Assembly (NCBI RefSeq): GCF_029338395.1
Contig: NZ_CP119809.1
Location: forward strand, 3,162,001 to 3,226,000
Origin: Halorussus caseinilyticus
GTDB taxonomy: Archaea > Halobacteriota > Halobacteria > Halobacteriales > Haladaptataceae
Reading direction: 5' to 3'
Length of the DNA stretch: 64,000 nucleotides
The position numbers and the translations under genes were made by a program. Below the pieces are notes generated by a model. It did no database searches and was not told the DNA's origin. It worked only from the letters and a program-made list of their open reading frames with translations. Below, in pieces: positions 55,234 to 63,713 of this stretch; position 1 is the stretch's first letter; the number at the start of each line of letters is the position of its first letter.

Positions 55234-55328
55234 CTATAAATTAACTTACATTCTTCGCTGGTTCAGTGGTTACGCTGAAGATTCGTATTTCGAAACTAAC
55301 CTCTATGACTATTGTGACTATTTCCCGT

Positions 55329-56162
55329 ATGCGGCACACCTGTCCGACTTGCGACGAGGAGTTCGACACGAGGCGGGGACTCGGGGTCCACCACAGTCAC
55401 GTCCACGACGAGCGACTCTCGAACCGGGAGTGTGCGAACTGCGGCGACGAGTTCTACTGCGAGTACGAGAAGAAGTACTGTTCTGAAACCTGTCACGGCG
55501 AGGCCGTCTCGTACGAAGGGGAATCGAACCCGAATTTTCAGGACAAGAAAGAAGTCGCCGAGTGTTCACTCTGTGGTACCGAGTTCGAATATTACGAGTC
55601 CTCGAAGGTGGGTTTGTACTGTTCTGATTGTGTCGAACAGAAGTCGTGGAGACCGATTCGTGACATCCAAGGCTCGAAGAATCCCCGGTGGAACGGCGGC
55701 AAAATCGAACTGGAGTGTGCGGTTTGCGATTCGACGGTCGAACGCTATCCGAGCAACGTCACCGGTGAGACGACGGTCTGTAGCGAGGAGTGCCGGACAG
55801 AATGGCTCTCCGAGGCGTTCGCCGAGTCCGGCCACCCCAACTGGAAAGGTGGCGGGAACGGCTCCTACGGAAAGGGTTGGAACGCGGTCCGACGAAAAGC
55901 CTTGGAGCGCGACGGCTACGAGTGCGTCGTCTGTTCGAAGTCAAGGGACGAAATCGGGCGAAACCCCGACATTCATCACATCGTTCCCGTCCGAAGTTTC
56001 GTTGAGTCCTCGAACCGCGACAAGACGGACGCCCACTTTCTCGGCAACGTCGTGTCGCTCTGCATCGGTTGCCACCGAAAAGCGGACTTCGGGAAGATAC
56101 CGAAATCGGAACTCAGGGAACGCATCGACTCCGCACGCACGGCGTCGTCGGCCGCTCTCTGA
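55329..56162 (+). CDS. HNH endonuclease with zinc fingers and NUMOD-like motifs
   Basis: 277 residues from MRHTCPTCDEEFDTRRG; upstream in-frame ATGs are not needed. A C2H2 finger (CPTCDEEFDTRRGLGVHHSH), CANCGDEFYC...CSETC, CSLCGTEF...CSDC and CAVCDSTVERYPSNV...CSEEC zinc sites are followed by the HNH core (WNAVRRKALERDGYECVVC, NPDIHHIVPVRSF, GNVVSLCIGCHRK). Repeated N-P-x-W/F-x-G patterns (ESNPNFQ, SKNPRWNGG, GHPNWKGGG) resemble the DNA-binding motifs of homing-type nucleases. Immediately downstream of tRNA-His; looks acquired. Confidence 0.9.
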   Translation: MRHTCPTCDEEFDTRRGLGVHHSHVHDERLSNRECANCGDEFYCEYEKKYCSETCHGEAVSYEGESNPNFQDKKEVAECSLCGTEFEYYESSKVGLYCSDCVEQKSWRPIRDIQGSKNPRWNGGKIELECAVCDSTVERYPSNVTGETTVCSEECRTEWLSEAFAESGHPNWKGGGNGSYGKGWNAVRRKALERDGYECVVCSKSRDEIGRNPDIHHIVPVRSFVESSNRDKTDAHFLGNVVSLCIGCHRKADFGKIPKSELRERIDSARTASSAAL

Positions 56163-58548: not shown

Positions 58549-59760
58549 GTGGCAGACACCGAATATTGCAGACGGACGGCAGTTACCGGACTCTCCGTGT
58601 CTCCGACGGACGCCACACGGCTTCGTGAGTTGGTCGAGGAGTGGAAACGCGGGTGCCAACTCGCGGTCAACGAGGCGTGGGGTGTCTGTCACACGAGAAG
58701 CGAAGTCCAGCAGTTAGCGTACGACCGCCTGCGCGAGGAAACCGCGCTCGGAAGCCAGCACGCAGTGCTGGCGACCCACCGGGCGGCCGAGGCCATCAAG
58801 CGCGCCCGTCAGCGCGAGGGCGAGAAACCCGAGTTCACGAGTCCTACCGTCGCGTTCGACACCCGGACGATGACCGTGTTCGACGACCGGACGGTGAGTC
58901 TCACCACCACGGGCGAGCGCGTCCGGTGTGACCTCGAACTCGCCGCCGACGGCGGGTATCAGGACCAGTACCTCGACGACGGCAAGTGGGAACCCGCCAA
59001 GAGTACCCTCCACTACCGCGACGGCGAGTTCACCTTCCACCTCGGCTTTCGGACGCCCAAGCCCGCCATCGACCCGCCGACCGAAGGCGCGACGGTCCTC
59101 GGCGTCGATTTGGGCGTCGAGAACCTCGCGGTCACCAGCACCGCCCGCTTTTTCGACGCGGGGGAACTCAACCACCGGCGCGAGGAGTTCGAGCGCGTGC
59201 AGGCGTCGCTCGAAGCCACCGGCACCAGAAGCGCGGCGCGGACGCTCAGACAGACGGGCAACCGACTCGACCGGTTCGTCCGCCAGCGCCTCCACGAGGT
59301 AGCCAACGGCATCGTCGCGGAGGCCGAGCAGTACGACTGCGAACTTATCGCGTTCGGCGAACTGAGCGAGGTCCACGACTTGCTCCCCGAGGCGGGACCG
59401 CTCCACGAGTGGCTGTTCGACCGACTGCTCTCGTTCGTGCAGTACCGCGCCGCCGAGCGAGGCATCGCCGTCGTGGAGGTCAACCCCGAGTACACCAGCC
59501 AGCGATGCATGGAGTGTGGGTTCACTCACCCGCAGAACCGGAACCTCGACGAGAACCACTTCGAGTGCCTGAAGTGCGAGGCGTCGGCCCACGACGACTA
59601 CAACGCCGCCAAGAACATCGCGTTCCGGTGCGTCCGGCGGGGTCCCCTGTCGTCGCGCGGACTGGGCGCGTCGGCGTGCGCGCTCCGGTCGGGGCTGGTG
59701 ACGCCCGACGACGGATTCATGCCCTACGCGGAGCTTTCGGAAGCGCCGCGGTCGGATTAG
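58549..59760 (+). CDS. tnpB: Stand-alone TnpB-type RNA-guided nuclease (IS605/IS1341 family)
   Basis: 403 residues from a GTG. The RuvC active site is complete: D187 (GVDLGVENLAVT), E271 (FGELSEV) and D350 (HDDYNAAKNI). A zinc ribbon (CMECGFTHPQ...FECLKC) lies between the last two. Members of the family cut DNA guided by an RNA made from the element's right end. No tnpA or clear hairpin end is visible on either side, so it may be immobile. The preceding 60 bp are AT-richer, with AAGTATTCAAGAGG. Confidence 0.88.
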   Translation: MADTEYCRRTAVTGLSVSPTDATRLRELVEEWKRGCQLAVNEAWGVCHTRSEVQQLAYDRLREETALGSQHAVLATHRAAEAIKRARQREGEKPEFTSPTVAFDTRTMTVFDDRTVSLTTTGERVRCDLELAADGGYQDQYLDDGKWEPAKSTLHYRDGEFTFHLGFRTPKPAIDPPTEGATVLGVDLGVENLAVTSTARFFDAGELNHRREEFERVQASLEATGTRSAARTLRQTGNRLDRFVRQRLHEVANGIVAEAEQYDCELIAFGELSEVHDLLPEAGPLHEWLFDRLLSFVQYRAAERGIAVVEVNPEYTSQRCMECGFTHPQNRNLDENHFECLKCEASAHDDYNAAKNIAFRCVRRGPLSSRGLGASACALRSGLVTPDDGFMPYAELSEAPRSD

Positions 59761-60200: not shown

Positions 60201-60575
60201 ATGAGTCAGCAACCCAAGCCACTGATTCGCCGAAGCGACGACGTAGAGTACGAGGACGTGGGCGCGGCAGACGGGATGCGCAAGGGCGTCCTGATAGACG
60301 AGAGTCGCGGCGCGCCCAACTTCGCCATCCGCCGGTTCGAACTCGACCCCGGCGCGTCGGTGCCCGAACACACCAACGAAGTCGAACACGAACAGTACGT
60401 CCTCGCGGGCGAGTACACCGTCGGCATCGAGGACGAGGAGTACACCGTCAGCGAGGGCGACTCGCTACTCATTCCCGCGGGCGTCGTCCACTGGTACCGA
60501 AACGACGGCGACGAACCCGGCGCGTTCATCTGCGCCGTGCCCAACGGCGACGACGAGATAGAACTCGCAGAGTAG
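60201..60575 (+). CDS. Cupin-domain protein
   Basis: 124 residues, one beta-barrel. Metal-binding motifs VPEHTNEVEHEQYVLAGEYT (H-x5-H-x-E type) and GDSLLIPAGVVHWYRN are intact. Leaderless start fits the TATA-like box about 28 nt upstream. Substrate unknown. Confidence 0.92.
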   Translation: MSQQPKPLIRRSDDVEYEDVGAADGMRKGVLIDESRGAPNFAIRRFELDPGASVPEHTNEVEHEQYVLAGEYTVGIEDEEYTVSEGDSLLIPAGVVHWYRNDGDEPGAFICAVPNGDDEIELAE

Positions 60576-60850: not shown

Positions 60851-61026
60851 TGTTATTTGCCGGTTTCCGGGCGGTATTGCCGGAATAACACCCTGTAGCG
60901 GCCGTTATTCTGAGCTTACCGTCCCGTATTGACCCGTTTCTCGTCCCGCCGTCCCCCACACGGCGTCTCTCTCTGCCGTGACGACCGCCGCGGGATATAT
61001 AATATGTGCCATTACCAAAATTTATA
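60851..61026 (+). promoter_or_regulatory. Promoter region of the Cys-rich precursor gene
   Basis: Contains an inverted repeat TGTTATTTGCCGG (60851-60863) / CCGGAATAACA (60880-60890), a third related GGCCGTTATTC nearby (about 60900-60910), and two AT boxes: ATATATAATAT (60995-61005) and TTTATA (61021-61026). The latter is about 30 nt before the ATG. Confidence 0.4.
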
Positions 61027-61052: not shown

Positions 61053-61595
61053 ATGACTAGTAATGGCGATGGACGGTCCGAATCGAGTAGCATCAATCGA
61101 CGTAACGTCCTCCGCGGGGCCGCGGCCGCGTCCCTGACCGGCATCGGTCTCTTCGGTTCCTCGGGCGGCGCAGTGGCCAAGACGGAACCGCTCGCGGACG
61201 AACGCGCGCGTCAGGTGTTCGAGTCCGACGCGAGCGAACTCCTCGGAACGCTTTCGGACGAGGGAGTGCTGGCGGACGCCTCCGCCGACGCACTGCCGAC
61301 CGCGCCTAACGCACGAAACGCCGCCGACGTGGGCGTCGCGCGGGCCTACAACGACGAAGGCAAGGAAGTTTACGTCGCTCGGGAGACGACCGACCGCGGC
61401 AAACTCACCGTACTCGTCAAGGCCGAAACCGGCGAGTCGCTCGGCGTCCTCTCGACTCCGGACGGCATCGAAACGTACGATTCCGAGGGTAGCGTCGACC
61501 CCCAGCAAGTCGGATGCATCTGCAGTGACACTAGTTGCGTGGGTGCCCCCGGAGTCATCAACTTCTGTTACGGCATCCCGTCCGGTTGCTGTTAG
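61053..61595 (+). CDS. Tat-exported precursor with Cys-rich C-terminus (microhalocin-like candidate)
   Basis: 180 residues. A twin-arginine signal (INRRNVLRGAAAASLTGIGL) is followed by Ala-rich signal end GGAVA, a hydrophilic propeptide (about 42-150) with short alpha/beta segments, and a C-terminal core of about 28 residues with six Cys at 155, 157, 162, 172, 179 and 180, ending GIPSGCC. Halocin C8 and similar haloarchaeal peptides are made as Tat precursors with a Cys-rich C-terminal part; sequence identity to those is not evident, and no immunity or export gene lies next to it. GGAGG at 61032-61036 is too far for a normal ribosome site. Confidence 0.75.
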   Translation: MTSNGDGRSESSSINRRNVLRGAAAASLTGIGLFGSSGGAVAKTEPLADERARQVFESDASELLGTLSDEGVLADASADALPTAPNARNAADVGVARAYNDEGKEVYVARETTDRGKLTVLVKAETGESLGVLSTPDGIETYDSEGSVDPQQVGCICSDTSCVGAPGVINFCYGIPSGCC

Positions 61596-61658
61596 AGCGC
61601 GAACTGTCGCGTTCTCTTTTCCGAACCGCTCAAATACCGCGAGCTATTACCCGCGAAC

Positions 61659-63713
61659 GTGTCGAAGCAGGTCCCGCAGGTGGACGCGCTGTTCCTCCAC
61701 GAGTCGTCCGGTCACTACACCGCGGTCGTGAACCGCGACGGCGAGCGCGTCTTCCGCGCCAAACTCGAACTACAGGAGACCAGCGCCGGGCCGCGGCCCG
61801 GCAAGTTCCGCGTCAAGCGCGGGACGAGCGAGGAACCGCGAAGCCCCGACCAGTTCGTGGAAATCGCGCGCAGAGCCGACCGCATCCGCATCTCCCAACA
61901 GACCTCCGCGGCGGGCCGCGAGGAACTGCAGGAGATGCTCGACGCCTACCAACTCGACGCGAAGGCGGTCCGGACCTGTCGCTACTGCGCGTCGGGCGGC
62001 CACTACTCGCCCATCACGAGCGAGACGGCCGTCGACGCGGGCGACGAGTACATCTGCCCCGACTGCGCGAAAGAGGAGTTGGAGCGCGAACTCTCGTTCC
62101 GGGGGGACCTCACGCGCGAAGCGCAGGACCGACTGGAGGAACTTCTGCTCGACGTGCAGGACTTGGAGCGCATCACGAACCTGCTGAAGGGTCAACTCGA
62201 CCCCGACCTCACCAAGTTCGACGAGATAAGCGCGAACGTCGAGGACGTGGACAACATCCGGGTCGATTCGCTCAATCTCCATCCGGGCATCCAGAACCTG
62301 CTCGAACCGCGCTTCGAGGAACTGCTCCCGGTCCAGAGCCTCGCGGTCCAGAACGGTCTGCTCGACGGCGATGACCAACTCGTCGTGAGCGCCACCGCGA
62401 CCGGCAAGACCCTCGTCGGCGAGATGACCGGCATCGACCGCGTGCTGAACGGGCAGGGCAAGATGCTGTTTCTGGTCCCCCTCGTCGCGCTCGCCAACCA
62501 GAAGCACGAGGACTTCGAGGACGAGTACGGTGACCTCGTGGACGTGACCATCCGCGTCGGCGCGAGCCGAGTTCGGGACGACGGCCACGCCTTCGACCCG
62601 AACGCCGACGTTATCGTCGGCACCTACGAGGGCATCGACCACGCGCTCCGGACTGGCCGGGACTTGGGCGACATCGGGACCGTCGTCATCGACGAGGTTC
62701 ACACCCTCAAAGAACAGGAGCGAGGCCACCGCCTCGACGGACTCATCGCGCGCCTCAAGCACTACTGCGAGACTCGCGCGAGCAGGCGCGAGGAGTACGG
62801 CGGCGCGCAGTGGGTCTACCTCTCGGCGACGGTCGGCAACCCCGCCAGTCTCGCCGAGTCGCTGGAGGCCAACCTCGTGGAGTTCGAGGAGCGGCCGGTA
62901 CCGCTCGAACGTCACGTCACCTTCGCCGACGGCAAGGAGAAACCCGACATCGAGAACAAACTCGTCAAGCGCGAGTTCGACACCAAGTCCTCGCAGGGCT
63001 ATCGCGGCCAGACCATCATCTTCACCAACTCCCGGCGGCGATGTCACGAGATTTCCCGCCAGTTGGAGTACAGTTCCGCGCCCTACCACGCGGGGCTCGA
63101 CTACGGCCGCCGGAAGAAGGTCGAACGCATGTTCGGGAATCAGGACCTCGCGGCGGTCGTCACGACCGCCGCGCTCGCGGCCGGGGTGGACTTCCCCGCC
63201 TCGCAGGTCATCTTCGACAACTTGGCGATGGGTATCGAGTGGCTCTCGGTTCAGGAGTTCCACCAGATGCTCGGACGGGCGGGGCGGCCGGACTACCACG
63301 ACCGGGGGAAGGTGTACGTTCTCGTGGAACCCGACGCCGCCTACCACAACAGCATGGAGATGTCCGAGGACGAAGTGGCCTTCAAACTCCTGAAAGGCGA
63401 GATGGAGAACGTCCGGACGCTCTACGACGAGAGCGCCGCCGTCGAGGAGACGCTTGCCAACATCACCGTCGCGGGCAAGCAGGCCAAGCGCCTCGGCGAC
63501 CGGATGATTGGCGAGATTCCGACCAAGCACGCCCTCGGCAAACTGCTGGAGTACGGTTTCATCGACGGACTCGAACCCACCGACCTCGGCCGGGTCGTCA
63601 CTACCCACTTCCTCGCGCCGGACGAGGCGTTCAAGATTCTCGACGGGGTTCGCAAGGACAAACATCCCTTCGACATCGCGGCCGAACTCGAACTCCACGG
63701 CGAAGAGGAGTGA
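61659..63713 (+). CDS. DEAD/DEAH-type superfamily 2 helicase
   Basis: 684 residues from GTG (VSKQVPQVDALFLHESSGHY). An N-terminal domain of about 200 residues includes a four-Cys zinc site (CRYCASGG...CPDC) and coiled coil. The ATPase has P-loop SATATGKTLVGEMTG, motif II VIDEVHTL, motif III LSATVGNP and C-terminal GRAGRPDYHDRGKVYVLVEP, as in Ski2/Hel308-like helicases. Involvement in DNA repair or RNA turnover is inferred. Confidence 0.92.
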   Translation: MSKQVPQVDALFLHESSGHYTAVVNRDGERVFRAKLELQETSAGPRPGKFRVKRGTSEEPRSPDQFVEIARRADRIRISQQTSAAGREELQEMLDAYQLDAKAVRTCRYCASGGHYSPITSETAVDAGDEYICPDCAKEELERELSFRGDLTREAQDRLEELLLDVQDLERITNLLKGQLDPDLTKFDEISANVEDVDNIRVDSLNLHPGIQNLLEPRFEELLPVQSLAVQNGLLDGDDQLVVSATATGKTLVGEMTGIDRVLNGQGKMLFLVPLVALANQKHEDFEDEYGDLVDVTIRVGASRVRDDGHAFDPNADVIVGTYEGIDHALRTGRDLGDIGTVVIDEVHTLKEQERGHRLDGLIARLKHYCETRASRREEYGGAQWVYLSATVGNPASLAESLEANLVEFEERPVPLERHVTFADGKEKPDIENKLVKREFDTKSSQGYRGQTIIFTNSRRRCHEISRQLEYSSAPYHAGLDYGRRKKVERMFGNQDLAAVVTTAALAAGVDFPASQVIFDNLAMGIEWLSVQEFHQMLGRAGRPDYHDRGKVYVLVEPDAAYHNSMEMSEDEVAFKLLKGEMENVRTLYDESAAVEETLANITVAGKQAKRLGDRMIGEIPTKHALGKLLEYGFIDGLEPTDLGRVVTTHFLAPDEAFKILDGVRKDKHPFDIAAELELHGEEE

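Follow-up and report, generated by a model that had tools for sequence, protein, structure and literature searches.

Few halocins have been described at the sequence level, although nearly all haloarchaea are said to produce them (PMC11509114). Halocin C8 arises from ProC8, a Tat-exported precursor of 283 amino acids that is split into the immunity protein HalI and the 76-residue C8 peptide (PMC11509114). HmHapP of Haloferax mediterranei (HFX_0892) is likewise a secreted haloarchaeal precursor, one that needs an extracellular protease for anti-haloarchaeal activity; the activity resides in its N-terminal, helical 45-residue part, and the text of the paper describes neither a cysteine nor a disulfide (PMC12893001). 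A further group, the archalans, comprises small Cys-containing class II lanthipeptides of Halorussus and relatives with anti-haloarchaeal activity (PMC10105419, PMC12144867).

The window analyzed here, a 64,000-nucleotide stretch of the Halorussus caseinilyticus genome, contains a gene whose product resembles the halocin C8 precursor in layout: a single gene encodes a Tat signal, a Cys-poor N-terminal part, and a Cys-rich C-terminal peptide, and there is no separate immunity or transport gene. It differs from ProC8 in its tail, which has 27 residues and six Cys compared with the 76 residues of C8, and in belonging to a family with 97 tail spacings rather than one. Relative to HmHapP, the Cys tail is C-terminal whereas the active part of HmHapP is N-terminal, so HmHapP is a precedent for processing only. 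Archalans depend on LanM and thioether rings, and the family of the window gene has no adjoining LanM.

Outside the archaea, the conotoxin and defensin superfamilies of animals combine a conserved signal and pro-region with hypervariable, disulfide-rich mature peptides of even Cys number, encoded by multiple genes. The family described below shares the conserved signal and pro-region, the varied even-Cys tails, and the multigene organization. Unlike those superfamilies, to which it has no homology, it occurs in another domain of life and uses Tat instead of Sec, and its orthologous tails look conserved, not hypermutated.

The precursor gene and its surroundings

The features of the locus are collected in Table 1. 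The twin-Arg motif of the precursor is NRRNVLRGAAAASLTGIGLF, and residues 14 to 28 match the Pfam TAT_signal model weakly (E 0.0097, under the curated cutoff), in agreement with the twin-Arg signal of the original prediction, which had been made from the DNA alone. That prediction also described six Cys within the C-terminal 26 residues, including a terminal Cys-Cys; the Cys are indeed residues 155, 157, 162, 172, 179, and 180, the last two ending the protein, and none lies earlier. Its statement that Cys is rare elsewhere holds as well, with a frequency of 1.07% (20/1871) in five Pfam-supported neighbor proteins. At this local frequency, finding at least six Cys in a 26-residue stretch has a binomial P of 2.9e-7. 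In a six-frame, stop-to-stop census of window ORFs of at least 60 amino acids (n = 613), no ORF other than that of the precursor carries six or more Cys within its final 30 residues. The 110-residue propeptide originally proposed was about right in length (residues 43 to ~150), but the proposal missed that this stretch is a conserved domain of a large family.

Table 1. Coordinates of the precursor gene, its parts and its neighbors in the window, with family loci beside an ABC gene pair in the last row
Feature	Position	Strand	Basis or remark
TnpB-like protein	58549-59760	+	Pfam
Cupin	60201-60575		Pfam
TATA-like box TTTATA, BRE-like ACCAAAA just before	61021..61026	+	Sequence
Precursor CDS, 180 aa	61053..61595	+	ATG 61053 to TAG 61595
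Full precursor protein, 180 aa: MTSNGDGRSESSSINRRNVLRGAAAASLTGIGLFGSSGGAVAKTEPLADERARQVFESDASELLGTLSDEGVLADASADALPTAPNARNAADVGVARAYNDEGKEVYVARETTDRGKLTVLVKAETGESLGVLSTPDGIETYDSEGSVDPQQVGCICSDTSCVGAPGVINFCYGIPSGCC	61053..61595	+	
Tat signal peptide, residues 1-42, RRNVL core	61053..61178	+	End after AVA predicted
Conserved Cys-free prodomain, residues 43-150	61179..61502	+	Profile A2, E 3.7e-27
Linker, residues 151-153 (QQV)	61503..61511	+	Pre-tail region, candidate processing site
Six-Cys tail, residues 154-180: GCICSDTSCVGAPGVINFCYGIPSGCC	61512..61592	+	Predicted mature peptide, three disulfides
Stem-loop then CTCTTTT, possible terminator (weak)	61594..61615	+	MFE -12.9 kcal/mol, z-score -1.6
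DEAD-box helicase	61659-63713		Pfam
Family loci adjoining ABC ATPase and ABC-2 permease	L154:1296-3908; L162:1429-3802; L132:161-4097; L135:2-3704; L125:3210-5595		

The TTTATA element begins 32 nucleotides upstream of the precursor ATG. TATA-like hexamers peak 31 to 34 nucleotides upstream of the ATG across the family, and the window copy lies within that peak; the spacing fits a leaderless haloarchaeal transcript and thereby supports the start codon at 61053. The weak stem-loop located just past the stop codon was not reported by a terminator scan.

The immediate neighbors of the precursor gene are the cupin gene, an ORF of unknown function, and the DEAD-box helicase gene. No obvious immunity, transport/export, or modification gene is found among them, as had been predicted for immunity and transport. 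About 1.3 kb upstream of the precursor gene lies the TnpB-like gene, whose product is of the TnpB/IS605 OrfB type with a Cas12f1-like TNB domain. Farther upstream, at 55266-56162 (+), the window encodes a Cys-rich protein of 298 amino acids with several CxxC pairs and an HNH-like C terminus (HHIVP...C..CH); this protein has no Pfam match at E 0.001.

The prodomain family and its tails

For the window protein, no match above cutoff was obtained in Pfam, NCBIfam, PHROGs, or PADLOC, and single-sequence searches found no match in GTDB contigs or IMG/VR. The latter result is attributable to limited sensitivity, as tblastn within the genus and a prodomain profile did find a family. Using the window protein as the tblastn query, we retrieved two paralogues from its own genome and relatives from 13 of 18 Halorussus genomes (E down to 3e-11), with a common plan consisting of a Tat signal, a prodomain, and a Cys-rich tail that differs in each. 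The closest protein in the 17 other Halorussus genomes is 34% identical to the window precursor.

To avoid circularity, profile A2 was built on the prodomain alone, with signal and tail excluded, from 20 rows of which the window sequence is one. This profile gave 63 matches in 14 of 18 Halorussus genomes, with five matches in the window's own genome (C1: 346835, 702781, 2828657, 3159543, and the window copy). Across Halobacteriales, an order that was sampled and not fully covered, the profile matched 60 of the 392 genomes, distributed over 26 of 95 genera. In a phylum sample of 295 genomes, with an unstated proportion from other orders, all matches fell within Halobacteriales. Copies number up to 11 in one genome, often in tandem, and 0 to 8 per Halorussus genome. 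The window copy is itself matched by the profile, and pairwise tblastn also links the window protein to other members. One member (L062, G000:C1:3159543-3159902), situated ~2.1 kb before the first base of the window, has a 12-Cys tail (NCSDACGEVYDRTVCSTTCGPYSCGCVKYGIHTSCTDPSCDGCYTIDYSCCGDYNCDL).

In all, 124 distinct ORFs contain the prodomain, and 122 of them are genes with a Cys-rich tail when two frameshifted ones are counted. At least four Cys are present in the C-terminal tail of 120 of the 124, and 116 of these 120 have a Tat-like [RK]Rxx[hydrophobic] motif. Two of the four tail-less ORFs, L084 (G015:C3) and L165 (G169:C2:675332), have a Cys-rich tail out of frame with the prodomain, reflecting a frameshift or a sequencing error. 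Six further members compared with Pfam and NCBIfam matched only general Tat-signal models (one over the cutoff), apart from chance-level hits; two members in named records carry the annotation "hypothetical protein," and we found no description of the family in open-licence PubMed Central papers. On these sequence comparisons, the window gene belongs to a large, unannotated Halobacteriales family with a shared prodomain and variable Cys-rich tails. The prodomain gave nothing significant against the PDB. An unreliable, low-confidence AF2 model (pLDDT 48; two sequences, the window protein and its relative L192) depicts it as a helix-loop-helix followed by beta strands.

The prodomain was also compared with the pro-regions of C8-like precursors. 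With 120 prodomains, hhalign returned a probability of 0.1% and a score of 10.9, and column-shuffled decoys had a mean score of 8.4 and reached 13.6; the best E value from hmmsearch was 0.11. A look-alike "YGTLxxG" strand had suggested homology to HalI, a candidate relationship that was rejected because the profile comparison stood at decoy level. With no detectable prodomain relation to C8-like precursors, the window gene is not recognizable as a member of the C8 family, although its layout is ProC8-like. The original remark that the sequence is not a recognizable C8 was therefore borne out, by tail length and Cys pattern as well as by the decoy-level prodomain comparison.

The C8-like precursors themselves form a diverse set (L024/L199 at G009:C1:425194-426198, and L200-L228) found in 24 of 392 Halobacteriales genomes, each with a Tat signal, a Cys-poor N-terminal part, and a long hydrophobic tail with ~10 to 12 Cys. 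As L024/L199 in G009 illustrates, they exist separately in the same genomes as the window's family. L024 has no Pfam or NCBIfam match above cutoff; we take it to be C8-like from its architecture and the general features of C8, not from a comparison with P83716 itself.

Tail Cys counts across the family are 4, 6, 8, 10, 11, 12, 14, 16, 18, 20, and 22, and 119 tails have an even number compared with one that is odd. When only distinct tail Cys spacings are considered, 96 of 97 are even. The window copy likewise has an even number of Cys, all within its C-terminal tail. Cys accounts for 21.8% of tail residues and for 0.02% of prodomain residues (3 in 13,357), and the last Cys lies 0 to 8 residues from the C terminus family-wide. 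Even parity points to pairwise disulfides, whereas metal sites, lanthionines, or chance would not be expected to produce it; this argues strongly that the family tails are disulfide bonded. Most tails are acidic (median net charge, -5) and hydrophilic.

Paralogous tails are unrelated to one another, whereas orthologous tails are usually more conserved than the prodomain and are under purifying, not diversifying, selection. The dN of the tail was below that of the prodomain in 19 of 26 compared pairs (for L006/L008, 0.010 versus 0.134), a tendency rather than 26 independent tests, since the pairs share sequences. The pair formed by the window protein and L140 shows no such excess of tail over prodomain conservation. 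The mostly lower dN of the tail indicates that it is selected as a product. Family-wide, the 14 residues preceding the tail are rich in D/G/T/S/V/Q, and a V-[ST]-x-[QEMR]-like motif occurs there at a frequency of 20 to 35%, compared with 4 to 6% in control 14-mers. From these compositions, we infer a cut site in the acidic, Gly/Thr/Ser-rich linker before the tail.

The tail of the window protein (27 residues; CxC-x4-C-x9-C-xGIPSGCC, spacing 1-4-9-6-0) is the shortest type in the family and the most hydrophobic of 120, with a mean hydropathy excluding Cys of +0.47 compared with a median of -1.17. Its export is predicted, and if released it would have a mass of ~2.7 kDa, compared with the limit of 10 kDa for microhalocins. 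It had no match in the PDB. When the CxGIPxGCC-stop ending was searched as a DNA pattern in 84,980 species, 28 loci were returned, of which a single one is archaeal and real: L192 (the same place as L140), from Halobacteriales archaeon QS_1_68_20. The other 27 are bacterial and were taken, as a group, to be chance. L192, from another taxonomic family, is 43% identical to the window protein over the full length and retains exactly the six-Cys spacing and the xGIPSGCC end, so that the Cys are conserved; no homologue carries the tail inside a larger known enzyme. Another full-length relative, on the Halostagnicola larsenii plasmid NZ_CP007059.1 (34% identity, E 7e-12), has a four-Cys tail with a CC end. 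The joint loss of two Cys in this species is consistent with one missing disulfide; in the window protein, that bond would link Cys172 to either Cys155 or Cys157.

Partner genes within the family

The window copy has no conserved partner gene: its six-Cys relative L192 adjoins different genes, namely a histidine-utilization cluster and an MFS-like transporter (read from ORFs), unlike the window locus. This difference implies that no partner gene accompanies the unit as it is inherited or moves.

Elsewhere in the family, a prenyl-synthase-like gene directly adjoins nine members in seven places (L129 three times, L136, L137, L142, L145, L157, and L106/L234, with L234 corresponding to L106/L151). 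It has an invariant EYYDIxDD...D motif, and its profile matches part of solved trans-prenyl (polyprenyl) synthases (E 8.6e-7) but no Pfam family. A C-terminal Trp is present in eight of the nine linked tails compared with 3 of 111 others (Fisher P 1.7e-9, which is nominal since the members are related). The ninth linked tail ends in GWL, and L099, one of the three Trp-ending exceptions, comes from a genome in which the enzyme is encoded at another place. In 392 genomes, 11 copies of the enzyme were found, the seven top-scoring ones being those that adjoin the family. This pairing suggests peptide modification in at least part of the family. In Bacillus, the ComX pheromone is prenylated on Trp and is accompanied by its transferase, ComQ. 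The Trp-ending sub-branch, and only this one, recalls that system in having a Trp near the peptide C terminus and an adjoining isoprenoid-synthase-like gene; unlike ComX, its members have a Tat-exported prodomain and many Cys. The window gene lies outside this sub-branch.

In several genomes, an orthogroup with tails like CDGCACE.DWCFVG...CITDSCGC adjoins genes for an ABC ATPase and an ABC-2 permease (Table 1), and the same gene pair accompanies a different tail type at L125. The pair is possibly an exporter or a means of self-protection. ABC transporters occur near 15 loci and are probably mostly there by chance, the one orthogroup beside the ABC-2 exporter excepted.

Proposed role, alternatives, and significance

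The window gene very probably encodes the precursor of a secreted disulfide-rich peptide. That a Tat-exported precursor bears a Cys-rich peptide as a separate C-terminal part, as originally proposed, is supported, as a prediction, by the sequence analysis. To the further reading that the product is a microhalocin-like antagonist, we would give an even chance. According to that reading, the folded precursor, judging from its signal, would exit the cell through the Tat pathway. The shared Cys-free prodomain would act as a generic export or folding module that keeps the product inactive; its presence in paralogues with different tails (~97 types) suits such a generic role better than tail-specific immunity, the original suggestion having been that the propeptide might protect the producer. 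Residues ~154 to 180 would make up a compact ~2.7-kDa peptide held together by three predicted disulfides, with Cys oxidation occurring outside the cell or during export. An extracellular protease, such as a halolysin, would free the peptide, and the free hydrophobic peptide would act on the envelope of competing haloarchaea in the manner of a microhalocin. The products would differ from genome to genome, one prodomain preceding many unrelated disulfide-rich tails.

The microhalocin reading draws on the lack of partner genes at the window copy, the patchy distribution (0 to 8 copies per Halorussus genome), the extreme hydrophobicity and microhalocin-like size of the 27-residue tail, and the existence of halolysin-cut precursors of anti-haloarchaeal peptides (HmHapP, PMC12893001). 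Against it, the family tails are for the most part acidic and hydrophilic, in contrast to the usual membrane-active peptide, and the window tail is an outlier; purifying selection on orthologous tails would equally suit signals, inhibitors, or binding proteins; and there is neither a linked immunity gene nor detectable homology between the prodomain and C8-like precursors. The designation "candidate new microhalocin" undersold what is a whole multigene family and overstated the function.

Selection of this kind is also what secreted peptide signals would show. Were the tails pheromones, the prodomain would escort a species-specific, disulfide-locked peptide to be released and sensed by kin, in keeping with diverse, lineage-specific tails on a common carrier, each under purifying selection, and with the trans-prenyl-synthase-like gene beside the Trp-ending sub-branch, reminiscent of ComX and its transferase ComQ. 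Neither a receptor nor a histidine kinase is among the recurrent neighbors, however, and the window copy has no Trp end and no prenyl-synthase gene; as many as 11 distinct members in one genome would also be a large number for signals. We consider a signaling role unlikely.

The tail could instead be a stable extracellular mini-domain that is never released from its Tat-exported protein, with a role in metal binding, redox chemistry, or association with the envelope. Proteins already folded and loaded with metal can pass through the Tat pathway. Cys clusters are able to bind metal, and the cleavage site is only predicted. Metal sites do not require the even Cys number seen in 96 of 97 distinct spacings, however, and the spacings are highly variable, with no common CxxC/His pattern and with His making up 1.6% of tail residues; nor is a lipobox or membrane anchor apparent. 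A permanently attached domain is therefore rather unlikely.

Less probable still are disulfide-knotted inhibitors, whose targets could be, for example, halolysins secreted by competitors or by the producing cell. Protease inhibitors are commonly small, disulfide-rich peptides whose loops vary, and subtilisin-like proteases are among the secreted proteins of haloarchaea (PMC12893001), but the window tail has no sequence match to any solved inhibitor and protease genes are not among the recurrent neighbors. A class II lanthipeptide precursor, with the Cys in thioether rings with Ser/Thr, is highly improbable even though LanM enzymes abound in Halorussus (PMC12144867). The single LanM-type match in the window's genome (C1:220880) is far removed in coordinate from the precursor gene (C1:3223053). 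None of the genomes compared has LanM close to a family member, and the two do not strictly co-occur (family without LanM in G002, G005, G015, and G017; LanM without family in G004). In addition, the window tail offers four Ser/Thr for six Cys, and thioether rings give no reason to expect an even number of Cys.

We tentatively suggest, as a possibility that falls short of being likely, that Halobacteriales possess a combinatorial library in which one exported carrier domain is joined to at least ~100 unrelated even-Cys tails, some of them modified by enzymes of their own, such as the prenyl-synthase-like partner of Trp-ending tails, as an archaeal counterpart of the venom-peptide and defensin superfamilies that would serve killing or recognition between strains. 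In such a library, the window gene would represent the three-disulfide type of smallest size and greatest hydrophobicity.

The family would provide many candidate peptide effectors of archaea that lend themselves to direct testing, and the prodomain offers a search handle that is independent of the hypervariable tail. The family raises the questions of how as many as 11 disulfides are formed by haloarchaea at molar salt concentrations, what cuts the precursors, and whether archaeal peptides undergo ComQ-like lipidation. Should the peptides prove not to be antimicrobial, the family would still represent a sizeable unannotated class of secreted haloarchaeal proteins.
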